Source: Phytoseiulus persimilis (taxonomy: Eukaryota; Arthropoda; Arachnida; Mesostigmata; Phytoseiidae). Taken from it: a stretch of 64,000 nt of DNA. The stretch spans positions 936,775 to 1,000,774 of the forward strand of contig CM075104.1 in NCBI GenBank assembly GCA_037576195.1, written 5' to 3'. Made by a program: the position numbers and the translations under genes. Each line of letters starts with the position of its first letter. The stretch's first letter is position 1. Below are positions 19,348 through 52,678 of the stretch, in pieces. A model generated the notes under the pieces. It saw only the letters and a program-made list of their open reading frames with translations. It ran no database searches and was not told the origin of the DNA.

Positions 19348-19543
19348 NNNNNNNNNNNNNNNNNNNNNNNNNNNNNNNNNNNNNNNNNNNNNNNNNNNNN
19401 NNNNNNNNNNNNNNNNNNNNNNNNNNNNNNNNNNNNNNNNNNNNNNNNNNNNNNNNNNNNNNNNNNNNNNNNNNNNNNNNNNNNNNNNNNNNNNNNNNNN
19501 NNNNNNNNNNNNNNNNNNNNNNNNNNNNNNNNNNNNNNNNNNN
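19348..19543. other. Assembly gap (196 N)
   Basis: A run of unknown bases lies between the inverted repeat and the large 45 bp array. The true distance and content are unknown, and array units may be missing. Confidence 0.99.
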
Positions 19544-35659: not shown

Positions 35660-36380
35660 CAGCGAAAATTTCGAATATCCTTACTATATATAATCGGCTT
35701 AGTCTGTCAGTTTGTCAGTTTGTCCGCACTTTTTTTGGAAGACATGAAGGTGATTCTGGGACCAATCTGAACATACTCTCCCAAGTCTGGAGAGGTGATT
35801 CCGGTACTAGTCTGACAATACTTTTCAGAAGCTGGAGGGGTGATTCTAGAACGAATATGAGCATACTTTCCAAAACGTGGAGGGGTGATTCCGGAACCGA
35901 TCTGACCATTACTTTCCAACTCTGGCGGGGTGATTCCGAGACCAATCTGGCCATTACTTTCCAACTCCGGAGGGGTGATTCCGAGACCAATCTGATTATT
36001 ACTTTCCAACTCTGGAGGGGTGATTCCGGGGCCAATCTGAGCATTACTCTCCAACTCTGGAGGGGTGATTCCGAGACCAATCTGAGTATTACTTTCCAAC
36101 TCTGGAGGGGTGATTCCGAGACCAATCTGACCATTACTTTCCAACTCTGGCGGGGTGATCCCGAGACCAATCTGGCCATTACTTTCCAACTCTGGAGGGG
36201 TGATTCCGAGACCAATCTGAGCATTACCTCCCAACTCTGGAGGGGTGATTCCGAGACCAATCTGAGCATTACTTCCCAACTCTGAAGGGGTGATTCCGAG
36301 ACCAATCTGAGCATTACTACCCAACTCCGGAGCGGTGATTCCGGGGTCAATCTGACCATGTTTTCCAAAATCAGAATGCT
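35660..36380 (-). repeat. 45 bp satellite array in left foldback arm
   Basis: About 13.6 units in minus orientation. The outer units near 35746-35900 are diverged (agtctggagaggtgattccg), while the inner ones match the consensus of the large array. A ctgtcagtttgtcagtttgtc leader stands outside it and recurs inverted in the right arm. Confidence 0.95.
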
Positions 36381-39640: not shown

Positions 39641-39679
39641 AGGCACTTTTCTCTCTCTTCACTGGTTCAGCATTGTTTG

Positions 39680-40400
39680 GTTTGGGAAGTAATGCTCAGA
39701 TTGGCCCCGGAATCACCCCTCCAGAGTTGGAAAGTAATGCTCAGACTGGCCCCGGAATCACCCCTCCAGAGTTGGAAAGTGATACTCAGATTGGTCTCGG
39801 AATCACCCCTCCAGAGTTGGAAAGTAATACTCAGATTGGTCTCGGAATCACCCCTCCAGAGTTGGAAAGTAATACTCAGATTGGTCTCGGAATCACCCCT
39901 CCAGAGTTGGAAAGTAATGCTCAGATTGGCCCCGTAATCACCCCTCCACAGTTGGAAAGTGATGCTCAGATTGGTCTGTGAATCACCCCTCCAGAGTTGG
40001 AAAGTAATGCTCAGATTGGTCTCGAAATCACCCCTCCAGAGTTGGAAAGAAATGCTCAGATTGGTCTCGAAATCACCCCTCCAGCGTTGGAAAGAAATGC
40101 TCAGATCGGCCCCGGAATCACCCCCCCAGAGTCGGAAAGTAATGCTCAGATTGGTTCTAGAATCACCCCTCCACGTTTTGAAAAGTATGGTCAGATTGGT
40201 TCCCGAATCACCCCTCCAGCTTTTGATAAGTATAGTCAGACTCGTACCGGAATCACCTCTCCAGACTCGGGAGAGTATGTTCAGATTGGTCCCAGAATCA
40301 CCTTCATGTCTTTCAGAAAAAGTGCGGACAAACTGACAGACTGACAAACTGACAGACTAAGCCGATTATATTATATATAGTAAGGATAGCATATCCGGCA
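39680..40400 (+). repeat. 45 bp satellite array in right foldback arm
   Basis: About 13.7 units in plus orientation, mirroring the left arm in unit number. Units after 40140 are diverged (cacgttttgaaaagtatggt) and lead into aaactgacagactgacaaac and a TATATA stretch, as in the left arm. Confidence 0.95.
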
Positions 40401-46657: not shown

Positions 46658-46663
46658 TTTATT
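46658..46663 (-). terminator. Poly(A) signal of secreted gene A
   Basis: AATAAA on the minus strand, about 30 bases after the stop codon. Confidence 0.7.
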
Positions 46664-46693
46664 CAGGCTGTGGTTGAGAGGATAGACTTCACT

Positions 46694-47474
46694 TCAGAAG
46701 CAGAAGTTGATTGTTTTCTTGTAATCTGGGAGCAGAGACATGATTTTCCCAACTAGAGCATTGATAAGCTCAACTCGCATGGCCCCGAAATCCTCAGCGT
46801 GCTTTCTGAGGACCGCAACGGCGTCCTTGACTGCGTCCACGGCGAGCTTGGAGGAAGTCGATGTCAACTGGAGGTGGGCCTGGATATAGCACTTTGCGTT
46901 CTGCATGGGAGTTCCTTTCTCGCAATCGGTGTCGACTGCTCGGAGCCTGGAATAGGACCGGACGAATTTGACATGAATCCATCTCTGACTAAGACGCAGC
47001 AGGGGGCAAAACGGCATGCCGGGTGTTCATTACAGTGGTTTCAATTTCGCTTCGAGTTCGTCCTGCAGGTTTTCCAGCTCGGTTCTGACTGCTACTGCAG
47101 GCTCTCGTCTCTTCGGGTCCCGTTGGATGGCCCAATCGGACGTCTCTTGATAGGTTCCTGATAAAACATGGGTCATCCAACCAGAAACGCACTCGATAGC
47201 TAGAATGAACTGATTGTTATCAACCAATAAAAACGGTCGTCCTGATATTGATCCCGATAAGTAGGCGCTCTATGGTGGAGTCGAATTCAGAGTTGCGATG
47301 GGCTCGGCGATTCCCGACTGGCAACTTGAGTCGAGCTCTCCGACACCATCCAGAAATGGACGGAAATATAAGTTCTTGGGGTAATTCTGTTCTCTTACAA
47401 TGATCGATGTTTCCGTTCCAGGCGCTGGTCGAAGTAGTCAGGAGGCAGGCGGCGATGATGCCGGAACAACGCAT
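46694..47474 (-). CDS. Secreted helical protein A (paralogue of the gene at 51916)
   Basis: Exons 47474-47399, 47317-47034 and 46988-46694 give about 217 residues if one frameshift is allowed. Exon 1 encodes a signal peptide (MRCSGIIAACLLTTSTSA). The introns are 81 and 45 bases, GT-AG, phases 1 and 2, at the same places as in the paralogue. Exon 2 has RLLIG and, after a run of five T (47229-47233) where the frame must slip by one base, QFILAIECVSG. Exon 3 has KHAEDFG and a C-terminal cysteine. Four cysteines are shared with the paralogue. The T-run could be an assembly error or a disabling mutation. I recognise no named family; export and helical content are inferred. Confidence 0.65.
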
Positions 47475-47520
47475 GTTGTCAGACTTGAGCCACTCTGTAC
47501 CTCTCTGAAACATACTCTCC

Positions 47521-47527
47521 TATTATA
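47521..47527 (-). promoter_or_regulatory. TATA box of secreted gene A
   Basis: TATAATA on the minus strand begins 53 bases before the ATG, exactly the spacing seen in the paralogue. The leader between is also alike (ggtacagagt and tctgacaac before the ATG). Confidence 0.7.
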
Positions 47528-47639
47528 CCACACGGACTTCCAGAACAATGCTCTTTGTCCTTTGACGAAATTCTCATTCTCAACACATTCCCGGAGTCAC
47601 ATGATTTTCTCAGAACGTTGAGCTGACCTTATCGTCGGC

Positions 47640-48282
47640 ATTGTCAAGGATCTGGTCGATGGGCGGTTCACAAAGCCCGGAAAAATAGGTTTCTGTCCTA
47701 CCAACGAACTGGGTCCGCAGCGCTACTTCAAGCGACCGGGGACGGCCCCTCTTTTATCGGACTCTTTGGGTCTGATATCGCCGGGGAGTACAGACTGCGA
47801 TTCCAGGATTGGCCATTCTTGAGCGAGAGACTGGGTTCCCTGGAAAAGGTTCAGCCACGATACAGAAGTGGAAAGTTCTCAGCCTGGAACATTCTTTGCT
47901 TCGTTTTCCCCTGGAGAACTTCCCAACGGGGAAACTTTTTTCATCGAATACCTCGAGGGGCTGTCTCGATTCGCGTTGTCTATTAAGGGACGAAAGTCCG
48001 CTTCTGAAGCCGTGCAACTATAGTTCATGTGAGGATAAATAACTCCCATGTTTGTTGCCTTGCAGTGAAGTTCTGTAGTAGCATTCTAACGACCCTGGGT
48101 CGGTCTACAGCATTCATTCCTCTGCCCCCCTCGGGAATCTGTAAAATCGGCATGAATAGCTCTTATATTTGGTTGTGAATCAATGCGAGAGAACGGATTC
48201 TCCGGGAAGTAGGCGATTGATGTGAGCTGATCCGGAGTCCGGACACAACAGTCGATCTGTTGTTGAATCATTCGGCTCGAGA
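47640..48282. other. Intergenic stretch
   Basis: No motif-bearing frame, RNA or known repeat is seen. Confidence 0.4.
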
Positions 48283-48468
48283 TTACACTGCCCGACAAAA
48301 ATTTTTTTTCGCGTAACAAAGAAGCTGAAACCTAGGTTGGGGTAAGTCGAGGTCGGAGATTCCGAATTCCCAAATCGTTCCCTCGGATTCGCTCTTGTTT
48401 TCCTGTTATTCTAAATTTTCGGATTTCCGTAATTTTTTTTCTGTTGGGTCTTTTATCTCTGCCCAGGA

Positions 48469-48729
48469 GTGAGCCAGACTCATGAAAATTTGGGAGCATG
48501 TAGACATATAACAGAACTATCCCTGGCAGAAAATTTCGTACGATTCGGAGCCACGGTCTCTGAGCTAGGAGATATCAAACGTCAATTTTCGTCGGAGAAC
48601 ACCGAAAAGTTTCCTCTTCTTCAGCCGATGACTGAAAAAGTATCGTTCCCACAACCAACTTCCGTTGAGCTTTTTGATAGCAATTCCATTTACGAACATT
48701 TTGAGACAAAGTTGAGTGTGATCGGATGA
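48469..48729 (+). other. Short open frame, unassigned
   Basis: An 86-codon frame inside the same transposon, upstream of the main coding part. No motif is recognised. It might be an upstream exon or chance. Confidence 0.2.
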
Positions 48730-49039
48730 TCCATTCAGTTTTTATCTGCAAAAAACTGGACTCAAGAAAAGCACCCCTTCACCTAAGACTCAGAGCTGCA
48801 CAGCTCCGACTTTCAAGTGAGCTCTGAGCTGGCACCACGTGTTGGAGGAAACAGCGGGAAGAATCGATTCGCAGTCTACAGAGTTCGTTTTCGCTAGATT
48901 CGGCCCGCCTACCGCGTCCACATTCTGATGCTGTGCCCATACCGATCTACCGAGAGCGAGAACCGCAACCGTGGGCAGAGAGTGGAGAAACGTCGTCAGG
49001 GTTAGACGATTTATATCTACCTGAGGTCGCCCCTCGAAA

Positions 49040-50266
49040 TTCGACCTACAGGAGCTGAATGACCTCATCAGAGACCTTCGCCTGCCGAGGGAATCTGCAG
49101 ATTTCCTAACATCGAGGTCAAAAGAAAAGAATCTGCTGGCGCCAGGTACTTCCAGCAGCTGACTATGTTGAATACAATTCGTTAATCATGTAATGAAAGA
49201 ATTTGAGTCTGAGTTTTACTTCTTCGATGGCAGGCACCAAAATAACGTTCTACCGCACACGGGAGAAAGAACTTCTTCAGTACTTTGAAGCGGAACCCCA
49301 CTCGGTGTACTGCAAACATGTCGAAAACCTCCTTGAGCACATGGGTTTGCCACGATACGACGCCAGCGAGTGGCGCCTCTTTCTCGACAGTTCGAAGAGA
49401 AGCTTTAAGTGCGTCCTCCTGCACAACGGCAACCAGTACGCTTCGATTCCGCTCGGTCATTCCACTAGACTACGTGAGGACTACGACGCCATTGCGTTTG
49501 CGTTGGAGAAGATCAATACGAGGAGCACCAATGGCCAGTTTGTGTCGACTTGAAGATGGTCTCGATTCTTTTGGGCCAACAAGCCGGTTACACCAAATTC
49601 CCGTTCTTCTTGTGTCTTTGGGACAGCCGAGCGGATGACGAACATTGGATTCGAACGATTTGGCCGTCGATGGGATTTCTGAGACCCGGGCAGCCCAACG
49701 TGCTCAGAGACGCTCTGGTTCCGAAGGAAAAAATCATTTTCCAACCGCTGCATATAAAATTGGGTCTGATGAAACAGTTCGTCAAAGCATTGGATAAACA
49801 CGGCTCATGTTCCAACTACATGGTGCACAAGCTACCCGCTGTGAGCATTCAGAAGCTCCAGGTGGGGGTTTTAGATGGACCTCAAATCCGAAAGCTCATC
49901 GACGACCCTGTTTTCATTGAATCAATGAACCATCGAGAAGCCCATGCTTGGCGGTCATTTGTTCTGGTCGCTCAAAATTTCCTTGGGAACACGAGAGCTG
50001 AAAACTGCGTACAACTCGTCAAGAACATGCTCGTGAGCTTTCGAGTCCTAGGGTGTCGGATGAGAACCAATATGCATCATCTACACAGCCATCTCGGACG
50101 CTTCCCCAAAAATTTGGGTGCTGTTAGTGATGAACAAGGAGAAAGGTTCCATCAAGACATAGCGACGATGGAAGAGAGGTACCAGGGAAGATGGGACGTG
50201 CACATGATGGCCGACTCCTGTTGGACCCTTATACGGGATGACCCGCAAAGGCCCCACTCGAGGTAG
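49040..50266 (+). pseudogene. Protein of an unnamed transposon family
   Basis: The frame begins LQELNDLIRDLRLPRESADF and KEKNLLAPG. A GT-AG intron (49146-49233, 88 bases, phase 1) follows, then TKITFYRTREKELLQYF, YDASEWRLFLDSSKRSFKC and VLLHNGNQYASIPLGHS. Near 49515 a one-base frameshift is needed before VCVDLKMVSILLGQQAGYTK. The rest runs to 50266 with FFLCLWDSRADD, LHIKLGLMKQFVKALDKHGS, SDEQGERFHQDI and EERYQGRWDVHM. I recall many-copy, uncharacterised animal proteins with these blocks. It has no domain name I can give, and repeated acidic motifs (LWDSR, DEQGERFHQD) could be catalytic. Confidence 0.7.
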
Positions 50267-50757
50267 TCCCTCACGAGACGTTTTGTTGGTTCCGACGACT
50301 TTCATTGGCTTTCGTTTTTCCTGCATAAAAACTGAATGGCTCGTCGTATCACGCTCAAGTTTGTCTCAAAATGTTCGCGATTGAATTTTCTATCAAAAAG
50401 CTCCTCGGAAGTTGGCTGTGGGGACCATAGTTTTTTCGTTTTCGGCGGGAGAAGGGGCCACTTTTCGGTGCTCACCGACGAAATATGACTTTTGATCTCT
50501 TCTAGCTCACTGACCGTGGCTCCGATTGGAACGAAATTTTCACCAGAGATAGTTCTGTTACTGCTCTACATGCTCCGAGCGGGAGCAGAGATAAATAAAC
50601 TAACATGGAAAAAATCACGAAAATCCGAAAAATCGGAATAACAAAGAAAACTAGAGCGAATTCGAGGAAACGGTTAACAGATTCGGAATCTACGACCTCG
50701 ATTTACCCCATCCTAGGTGTCAGCTTCCTTGTTACGTTTTTACTGTCGGGCTGTGTT

Positions 50758-51862
50758 ATTTGCCTTCTAAAGAACTGAATTTGTGTGATTCGGGCGGAGA
50801 ATTCGGATACGATGAGCGGAATAAGCTGATGGCCGCAAATTTGTTCCCAACTCGAAATCTCGAGGCGATGATGTACTTAAGATGGGATAGAGCAGGTCAA
50901 GCAGGAACAATCAGAGATCGTGGGCCCACGGAGCTAAGCGTCGACGAAGCGAGTAAGGAGTGAGGAACTTAGATGTTCGACTGAAAGATCACGAAATCTC
51001 CAAGAGCACCGCCTGGTTATTCCGTCCCTCTCGGTCGCACTCGTATCGATAGTTCCACCATGTTCTTGTCTCCAGGCGAATGACAGACATAGTTCAGTTC
51101 CTATGTCTGCTCTGGTTGAGTTCTAAGAGGGTTGGCTCGTAGACCTCTAGAGATTCCCGACAGAGTTTATCATGGCAGCGCGTGAAGCGTGTCCGGGAAT
51201 AGAGAATTCGCTTCATCCAGACAGAGCAACTATTGGATGAATTGGTTAAGGGGGTACCTTACTTGTGAGATCGACGGGTCAGCTCGCCGCTTCACTGATC
51301 CTGAGATTCGGGTCTGTGTCGTGGCATTCTCAGGTGCATGAAACAGAAGCTCACCCGGTGTAGCCTCGAAATGTTGAATGCGTCTCGGACGACCCCGCAT
51401 TGGACTGACTACACTCTCTCTTAGCCACTATTCGCGACTCTCGACATTGACGGGATAGAGCGAGACGATTCACCGTTCACGGAATCATGAACCTCGTTGT
51501 TTGAATACCAATAGCAACCAAATGGAACAGTTATCTCACCGATTCTCGAGGGAAAGACAAATGAGTGCTGCAGACTATCTTACGCTCGTCAAACTCTTCG
51601 ACGCAACACCAAAATCTAATGCAGGACCTCACCATGAATTTGCGAGTTTCAGGAAATACGGGAGCCCTCCAACCTCAACAGACAACATCGACGATGGCGC
51701 GAACATGAAAACCTGCGCTTACGAGTCACCATGTGGGTTAATACAGGTTTGGGCTATTTCAAGGCGTGTCTATATCAAGCGATTTGAACCGCTGATCCGG
51801 CCCGGGGATTCTATCAAGAGTTGCTCCAAAGACAAAGAGTATTGTTCAGAATATCAGCATAG
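50758..51862. other. Intergenic stretch upstream of secreted gene B
   Basis: About 1.1 kb with no recognised gene or repeat. It contains the promoter-distal region of the plus-strand secreted gene. Confidence 0.4.
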
Positions 51863-51869
51863 TATAAAG
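51863..51869 (+). promoter_or_regulatory. TATA box of secreted gene B
   Basis: TATAAAG begins 53 bases before the ATG. Both the spacing and leader motifs (ggtacagagt, agacaac) match the divergent paralogue. Confidence 0.75.
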
Positions 51870-51915
51870 AATGCAGCACTCGGGAAGGTACAGAGTCTCT
51901 CCCAAGTCAGACAAC

Positions 51916-52647
51916 ATGCGTTGCTCCGCTCTCATCACCGCCGCCTTTCTCCTGGCCGCTCAGGCCAAAGCCTGGGACGCCACCGAAGGTGAGAAAAACA
52001 GAATAACTCCGGGAAATTCGTTCGCCCCTGATTCGCGATGAGCTTTGAAGGCTCAAGTTCAGTTGCTGATCGGGGCTCAGCACGCCCATGGCGATTCGGT
52101 ACCGTTACTCTCGAGCTGTAACGATGAATTCATTATAGCCGTCGAGTGCATCTCCGTGCACGTGAACACGGCTTTGCGGGGGGCCTACATGGAGCTATCC
52201 CATTGGTTCGACGAATCGGACTTGAAGTCTCAGAAGACTATTTTGGCATTGAGGAGCGAGCTGGGAGGAGTGCGCGATCAGCTTGAGGAGGAACTGAAAG
52301 AAGAGTGAGGAAGTGTGCCATGCCCCGTATTCGACCGCCTAAGTCCAAGTCTCGAAGGGATTCATGTTGAACCTGACTGATCCCATTTCAGACTCTCGAG
52401 GCTCCATGAGGATTGTGAAGGAAAATCTCCGCTCTTGCGAGAGGGATGCCTCATCCGTGTAAAGCTCAATATGATGTCCGCCGCCACCGATCACTCCGTA
52501 GGCCTCATAAAGAAGGTCGTTGGTGTCTTCAGGAGTCACGCTGAGGATCTCGGATCGGAGCAAGAGGAAAGCATCATGAATATCGCTCATGAGCTGCTGG
52601 GTGAGGTAGCTGACTTCGATAACGCCGTCCGCACCTGCTTAGTGTGA
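51916..52647 (+). CDS. Secreted helical protein B
   Basis: Three exons (51916-51988, about 52043-52304, 52392-52647) encode about 196 residues. Donors are GTGAGA and GTGAGG; the second acceptor is ATTTCAG. Intron phases are 1 and 2. The first acceptor may instead be at 52058. Residues 1-19 are a signal peptide (MRCSALITAAFLLAAQAKA). The mature part is mostly amphipathic helix with five cysteines: SSCNDEF, AVECISV, HEDCEGK, REGCLIR and a near-terminal TCLV. HAEDLG is shared with the paralogue. No transmembrane segment follows the signal. The gene is intact. A TATA box, short leader and close poly(A) signal suggest strong tissue-specific expression, but this is inference. No known family is recognised. 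Confidence 0.78.
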
Positions 52648-52672
52648 AGTATCGGCACTCTCCTTCAGCTCC

Positions 52673-52678
52673 AATAAA
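52673..52678 (+). terminator. Poly(A) signal of secreted gene B
   Basis: AATAAA 26 bases after the stop codon, matching the arrangement in the paralogue. Confidence 0.75.

Follow-up and report, generated by a model that had tools for sequence, protein, structure and literature searches.

Two head-to-head genes, old duplicates of each other, that are predicted to encode small secreted four-cysteine proteins in a transposon-rich stretch of Phytoseiulus persimilis DNA

The stretch analysed here, hereafter the window, is 64,000 nucleotides of Phytoseiulus persimilis DNA (assembly GCA_037576195.1, contig CM075104.1, positions 936,775 to 1,000,774 of the forward strand), and our subject within it is a head-to-head pair of small genes, gene A on the minus strand (46694-47474) and gene B on the plus strand (51916-52647), with 4.44 kb between their facing start codons. 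The parts of the pair, in window coordinates, are the following:

46694-47474, minus strand: gene A; exons 47474-47399, 47199-47034 and 46946-46694; precursor of 164 amino acids, mature protein of about 146, isoelectric point 6.1
47475-47563, minus strand: core promoter and leader of gene A; TATAA at -53; homologous to those of gene B (62 of 87 aligned bases)
46658-46693, minus strand: 3' end of gene A; AATAAA begins 30 bases after the stop codon
51916-52647, plus strand: gene B; exons 51916-51988, 52139-52304 and 52392-52647; precursor of 164 amino acids, mature protein of about 145, isoelectric point 4.8
51827-51915, plus strand: core promoter and leader of gene B; TATAA at -53
51989-52138, plus strand: intron 1 of gene B; counterpart in gene A at 47398-47200 (minus strand); acceptor common to both
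52305-52391, plus strand: intron 2 of gene B; counterpart in gene A at 47033-46947 (minus strand); 87 bases in both
52648-52678, plus strand: 3' end of gene B; AATAAA begins 25 bases after the stop codon

Each gene has three exons joined across GT/AG introns, of phase 1 and then phase 2, and both spliced models are free of internal stops over all 164 residues. Exon 2 (166 bases) and intron 2 are of equal length in the two genes, and the exons differ by 3, 0 and 3 bases, all multiples of three. By our reading, a TAAC in intron 1 of both genes may represent a branch-point-like motif. TATAA starts at -53 in each gene and is the sole TATA[AT] match within 120 bases upstream of either ATG. An earlier note, made from the letters of this DNA, had described much of this architecture, and the TATA box 53 bases before the ATG, the intron phases at matching places, the AATAAA within about 30 bases of the stop, and the MRCS start, HAED-[FL]-G motif and four cysteines common to both genes (counting those of the mature proteins) were all recovered in our models.

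That the two genes are paralogues, as the same note had proposed, is supported by tblastn, in which either protein searched against the window finds the other gene (1.4e-18 and 2.5e-18), and by alignments of DNA tested against 300 dinucleotide-preserving shuffles per segment. None of the 300 shuffles reached the observed score for the flank from -89 to -1, exon 1, intron 1, exon 2, intron 2 or exon 3; the matching promoters and leader motifs reported before are thus homologous sequence. The similarity noticed previously at the start of intron 1 is also real, but it is not limited to the first 16 bases and spans both introns. In the first 60 bases after the stop, where the similarity fades, one shuffle in 300 reached the score, and no similarity above chance was seen from -400 to -161 (254/300 shuffles), from -160 to -90 (119/300) or from +61 to about +200 after the stop (190/300). 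Homology therefore takes in a single transcription unit and its core promoter, from about -90 to less than 60 bases past the stop. For exons 2 and 3, plain nucleotide identity under loose gap penalties is near that of base-shuffled controls, which is why the claim of homology rests on alignment scores and on the proteins.

The duplication was previously thought to be recent. Judged by the divergence of the two copies it is old, as only one-third of the aligned residues are identical (54/162), whole-gene synonymous divergence (dS) is 0.91 by NG86 and 1.02 by YN00, and the introns have accumulated about 0.6 substitutions per site. The corresponding nonsynonymous values (dN) are 0.62 and 0.64, and for the mature part dN is 0.67 and dS 1.05 (NG86; a single gene pair). 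The intron distance was calibrated by simulation and is about the same for both introns (0.4-0.8 and 0.4-1.1 within two standard deviations), with raw identities of 0.60-0.62 when the gap penalty was moderate and 0.54-0.57 when it was stiff. Calibrated distances are about 0.7 for exon 2 (0.6-1.2) and 0.9 for exon 3 (0.7-1.3, the upper value being the end of the grid), and those of the 5' flank and exon 1, both 0.4, lie below them. Consistent with this, identity in the 89-base flank and exon 1 together is 112/157 vs 224/419 in exons 2 and 3 (Fisher p = 1e-4, at one gap setting). The exons had looked more diverged than the introns by raw identity at two of three gap settings, a result that we dropped after simulating the alignment bias: with equal rates, the same aligner and indels, and introns trimmed of splice-site bases, a difference as large as that observed arose in 26-226 replicates out of 400, over 15 settings. 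The proteins thus appear to change at nearly the rate of the introns, while promoter, leader and signal-peptide exon seem better conserved.

In spite of this divergence, both copies look like maintained protein genes. In a rough neutral simulation, copies free of stops numbered 427 and 378 of 2000 at 0.1 substitutions per site, 58/2000 (plus strand) and 29/2000 (minus strand) at 0.3, and 16 and 13 at 0.5; such rarity, together with the open frames and the exon differences in threes, argues that selection has kept both. The median dN/dS for the whole gene is 0.66 (bootstrap 0.42-0.98), each of nine sliding windows has dN lower than dS, and within the mature part the second codon position shows the highest conservation (88/144 vs 69 and 73). 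Constraint on the coding sequence would accordingly be weak, and the pairwise test gives no sign of positive selection.

As for the products, both precursors start with MRCS followed by a hydrophobic stretch, with a plausible cleavage site before a tryptophan; signal peptide and site were judged by eye, and with both genes intact they agree with the secretion claimed earlier. The mature cysteines are spaced C-x59-C-x10-C-x62-C in both proteins (residues 28, 88, 99 and 162 in one, 29, 89, 100 and 163 in the other), the signal peptides hold one and two extra cysteines, HAED[LF]G is present in both, and no N-glycosylation sequon occurs in either mature protein of about 145 residues. The hydrophobic moment at the helical angle is above that of shuffled sequences, only 4/1000 and 7/1000 of which reach it, and at the strand angle it is not (168/1000 and 229/1000). 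Exons 2 and 3 were modelled separately; AlphaFold2, run on exon 2 with an alignment of the two genes, gave a two-helix hairpin with a predicted local distance difference test score (pLDDT) of 87.5.

The profile search and structure prediction that the earlier note had suggested named no family, in agreement with its view that none fits, and left us with the helical hairpin predicted for exon 2. No credible match to either protein was found in Pfam or NCBIfam, for which hits with E up to 10 were asked for, even though HMMER filters discard most matches above E 0.1 in spite of that limit; among PDB sequences, searched with the plus-strand protein and with a profile of both, nothing fell below E 0.1. 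The only Pfam match of either protein, DUF6702, was rejected (E 0.24, 11.9 bits vs a cut-off of 24), and the sole NCBIfam match, a cobalt-precorrin methyltransferase model (E 0.04), as well as a copper ATPase chain (E 0.14) and apolipoprotein A-I (E at least 0.58), were taken as chance or amphipathic-helix matches. A fold search with the exon 2 hairpin listed 99 matches at E up to 10, the best at 2.8 and none at or below 0.001; a two-helix hairpin is too generic for the fold to be identified from it. The exon 3 peptide of gene B had no confirmed relative in viral contigs or prokaryote genomes. Small, fast-changing secreted duplicates are a common kind of gene, and these two match no named family in the libraries searched.

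The nearest kind that we could find is the SSSGP set of salivary genes in a gall midge, the Hessian fly, a likeness of kind that would not imply homology. According to the available part of the source, SSSGP families form clustered paralogues, SSSGP-1 with one inverted and six tandem copies; promoter, signal peptide and intron are conserved while the mature region is diversified; the families are typically species-specific; and introns and untranslated regions are highly conserved, with strong positive selection reported (Chen et al. 2010, PMC2955719). Genes A and B resemble this set, as far as that account goes, in being clustered, inverted paralogues whose 5' region is better conserved than the part that encodes the mature protein. 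They differ in that the divergence of their introns could not be told from that of exons 2 and 3 and that their dN/dS, from one pair, lies below 1 where positive selection was described for the SSSGP genes. GC content in the window is about 0.49, from which that of the Hessian fly differs.

Two known classes of small secreted proteins were considered and set aside because the cysteine pattern does not fit, within what the accessible portions of the sources describe. Insect chemosensory proteins (CSP) are small, soluble, helical, four-cysteine proteins of 110-120 residues in which each disulfide joins two closely spaced cysteines, and insect odorant-binding proteins (OBP) have six conserved cysteines (PMC12940638). 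The products of genes A and B share the first four traits with CSP, but they are longer (about 145 residues) and their x59/x10/x62 spacing brings only C2 and C3 close together; against OBP, both have four mature cysteines. The Pfam library presumably includes a CSP model, and no CSP profile match came up for either protein in the Pfam search. OBP-like proteins with four cysteines do exist, and the OBP-like and microplusin-like proteins of ticks are likewise small, secreted and four-cysteine (PMC10053194, in the part available); that neither Pfam nor PDB gave a credible match is indirect evidence that genes A and B would differ from these.

Based on the intact paired structures, the homology, the matched core promoters, the cysteine spacing, the amphipathic-helix signal and the exon 2 model, we propose that genes A and B arose by an old inverted duplication within a lineage-specific family whose members are small, secreted, all-helical proteins braced by disulfides and binding something outside the cell, a proposal to which we would give roughly an even chance. 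The likeliest mechanism would be that a helical bundle braced by the cysteines, and made under a type of promoter shared by both genes, binds its partner outside the cell. Each gene would have a TATA promoter of its own, and its leader would be as short as about 20-25 bases, as follows from the usual distance between a TATA box and the transcription start. The signal peptide would be cleaved before the tryptophan (after AKA in one protein and TSA in the other), and the mature protein of about 145 residues might then fold into two near-equal helical hairpins, C1-x59-C2 and C3-x62-C4, connected by a ten-residue loop, an arrangement that would place all four cysteines at one end of the bundle. 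The secreted protein could act by binding a partner or small ligand; since frame and cysteines are kept while the remainder changes almost at the intron rate, the partner is probably variable, such as a host, prey, mate or microbe factor, and promoter and secretion signal would consequently be retained as the mature surface is remodelled.

Several of our results weigh against this proposal. The exon 3 model, although it contains helices only, has a pLDDT of 56, and such a poor model leaves the four-helix picture unproven; moreover, given the helix lengths predicted for exon 2, C1 would not lie directly beside C2 if helix 2 continues straight. The symmetry of the spacing suggested that one hairpin had been duplicated internally into two, an idea that we rejected because shuffled sequences reached the score in 1686/2000 and 254/2000 cases. 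No third copy of the genes, which the earlier note had supposed to belong to a rapidly expanding family, was found in the window, where a profile of the pair, run against six-frame translations 25 residues or longer, gave a best other match at E = 1.7. A dN/dS above 1 was not seen for the whole gene or in any of the nine windows, so that positive selection is not shown, and relaxed constraint would be expected to yield identical figures. Finally, both genes are known here from DNA, and at least one of them might be a silent or decaying copy, a recent pseudogene. The lack of any extra conservation in exons 2 and 3 over the introns speaks for such decay, but frames, splice sites, cysteines, TATA boxes and poly(A) signals have been kept, and exon indels have stayed in threes, at a dS of about 1, and the 5' end is conserved above the remainder, all of which makes pseudogenes improbable in our judgment.

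A stronger contender, if somewhat short of an even chance, is an ordinary pair of small secreted carrier or structural proteins under weak constraint, free of any arms race, whose sequences drift because only the helix pattern and the cysteines matter. A dN/dS below 1 even at its upper bootstrap bound, dN lower than dS in nine of nine windows and the better conservation of codon position 2 speak for this explanation, and helical bundles tolerate sequence change. Divergence close to the intron rate fits it less well, as this is unusually fast for a housekeeping protein, and slack constraint and an arms race with diversifying selection would not be separable from two sequences. At the other extreme, the pair could represent an undescribed family, specific to its lineage, of secreted four-helix proteins that take part in an arms race, in which promoter and signal peptide stay constant and the mature part is reshaped as fast as neutral sequence or faster; it would parallel the salivary effectors of gall midges in an animal not related to them. 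This we consider unlikely. Were the genes expressed in a secretory organ and diversifying, they would add a lineage in which secreted proteins change at intron speed and their promoters do not; at present they stand as a single duplicate pair known from sequence.

The remaining explanation, that a transposon carries the exons as cargo or as part of its own coding sequence, draws on the surroundings, as transposon domains surround the locus and a DNA transposon with terminal inverted repeats (TIR) sits between the two genes:

48286-50755: TIR DNA transposon between the genes; 2470 bases; imperfect arms of about 0.44 kb, 77% identical; TTA on both sides

Both genes, however, lie outside this element, which has CACTG/CACAG ends and does not belong to the pair, and the homology between them covers one transcription unit only. 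The earlier note had named exons from a known transposon as a refutation; neither protein carries a transposase, reverse transcriptase or other mobile-element domain in Pfam, and the window holds no further copy; we therefore regard this explanation as very improbable. Minus the TIR element, about 2.0 kb would separate the start codons. Its open reading frame at 49550-50266 had no Pfam match and no confirmed relative in viral contigs.

The region had also been called transposon-dominated, a description that our scan upholds. Thirty open stretches selected from the lists of open reading frames were compared with Pfam, a scan that spliced genes with short exons would escape; 18/30 gave a match at E 0.001 or below (16/30 at or above the curated cut-off), many of them to transposon domains, and 12/30 gave none, which leaves room for host-like genes besides this pair, the only ones according to the earlier note. 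The domains matched include reverse transcriptases, integrase, Pao peptidase, Helitron and PIF1 helicases, MULE, pogo-like DDE, BED finger, DUF6570 and RPA OB, among others, all of which we take to be types that occur in mobile elements. Neither a tRNA (ARAGORN) nor an Rfam match at the gathering score was found in the window. Between 7562 and 15720 on the minus strand, Helitron_like_N, PIF1 helicase, DUF6570, an endonuclease domain and an RPA OB domain lie in separate frames and, by our reading, may be the remains of one Helitron element. Farther along, a tandem array of 45-base units, several reading frames of which contain long open stretches, runs from 19486 to about 26800 (its end placed by the open frames), and 161 places match a 300-base reference. 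A run of N at 19348-19543, at the start of the array, is an assembly gap or a masked stretch, and the bin from 16 to 24 kb has a low CpG ratio of 0.59. Inverted arms at 35701-36373 and 39678-40350 are 89% complementary to each other, and the first arm is 83-84% complementary to parts of the array.

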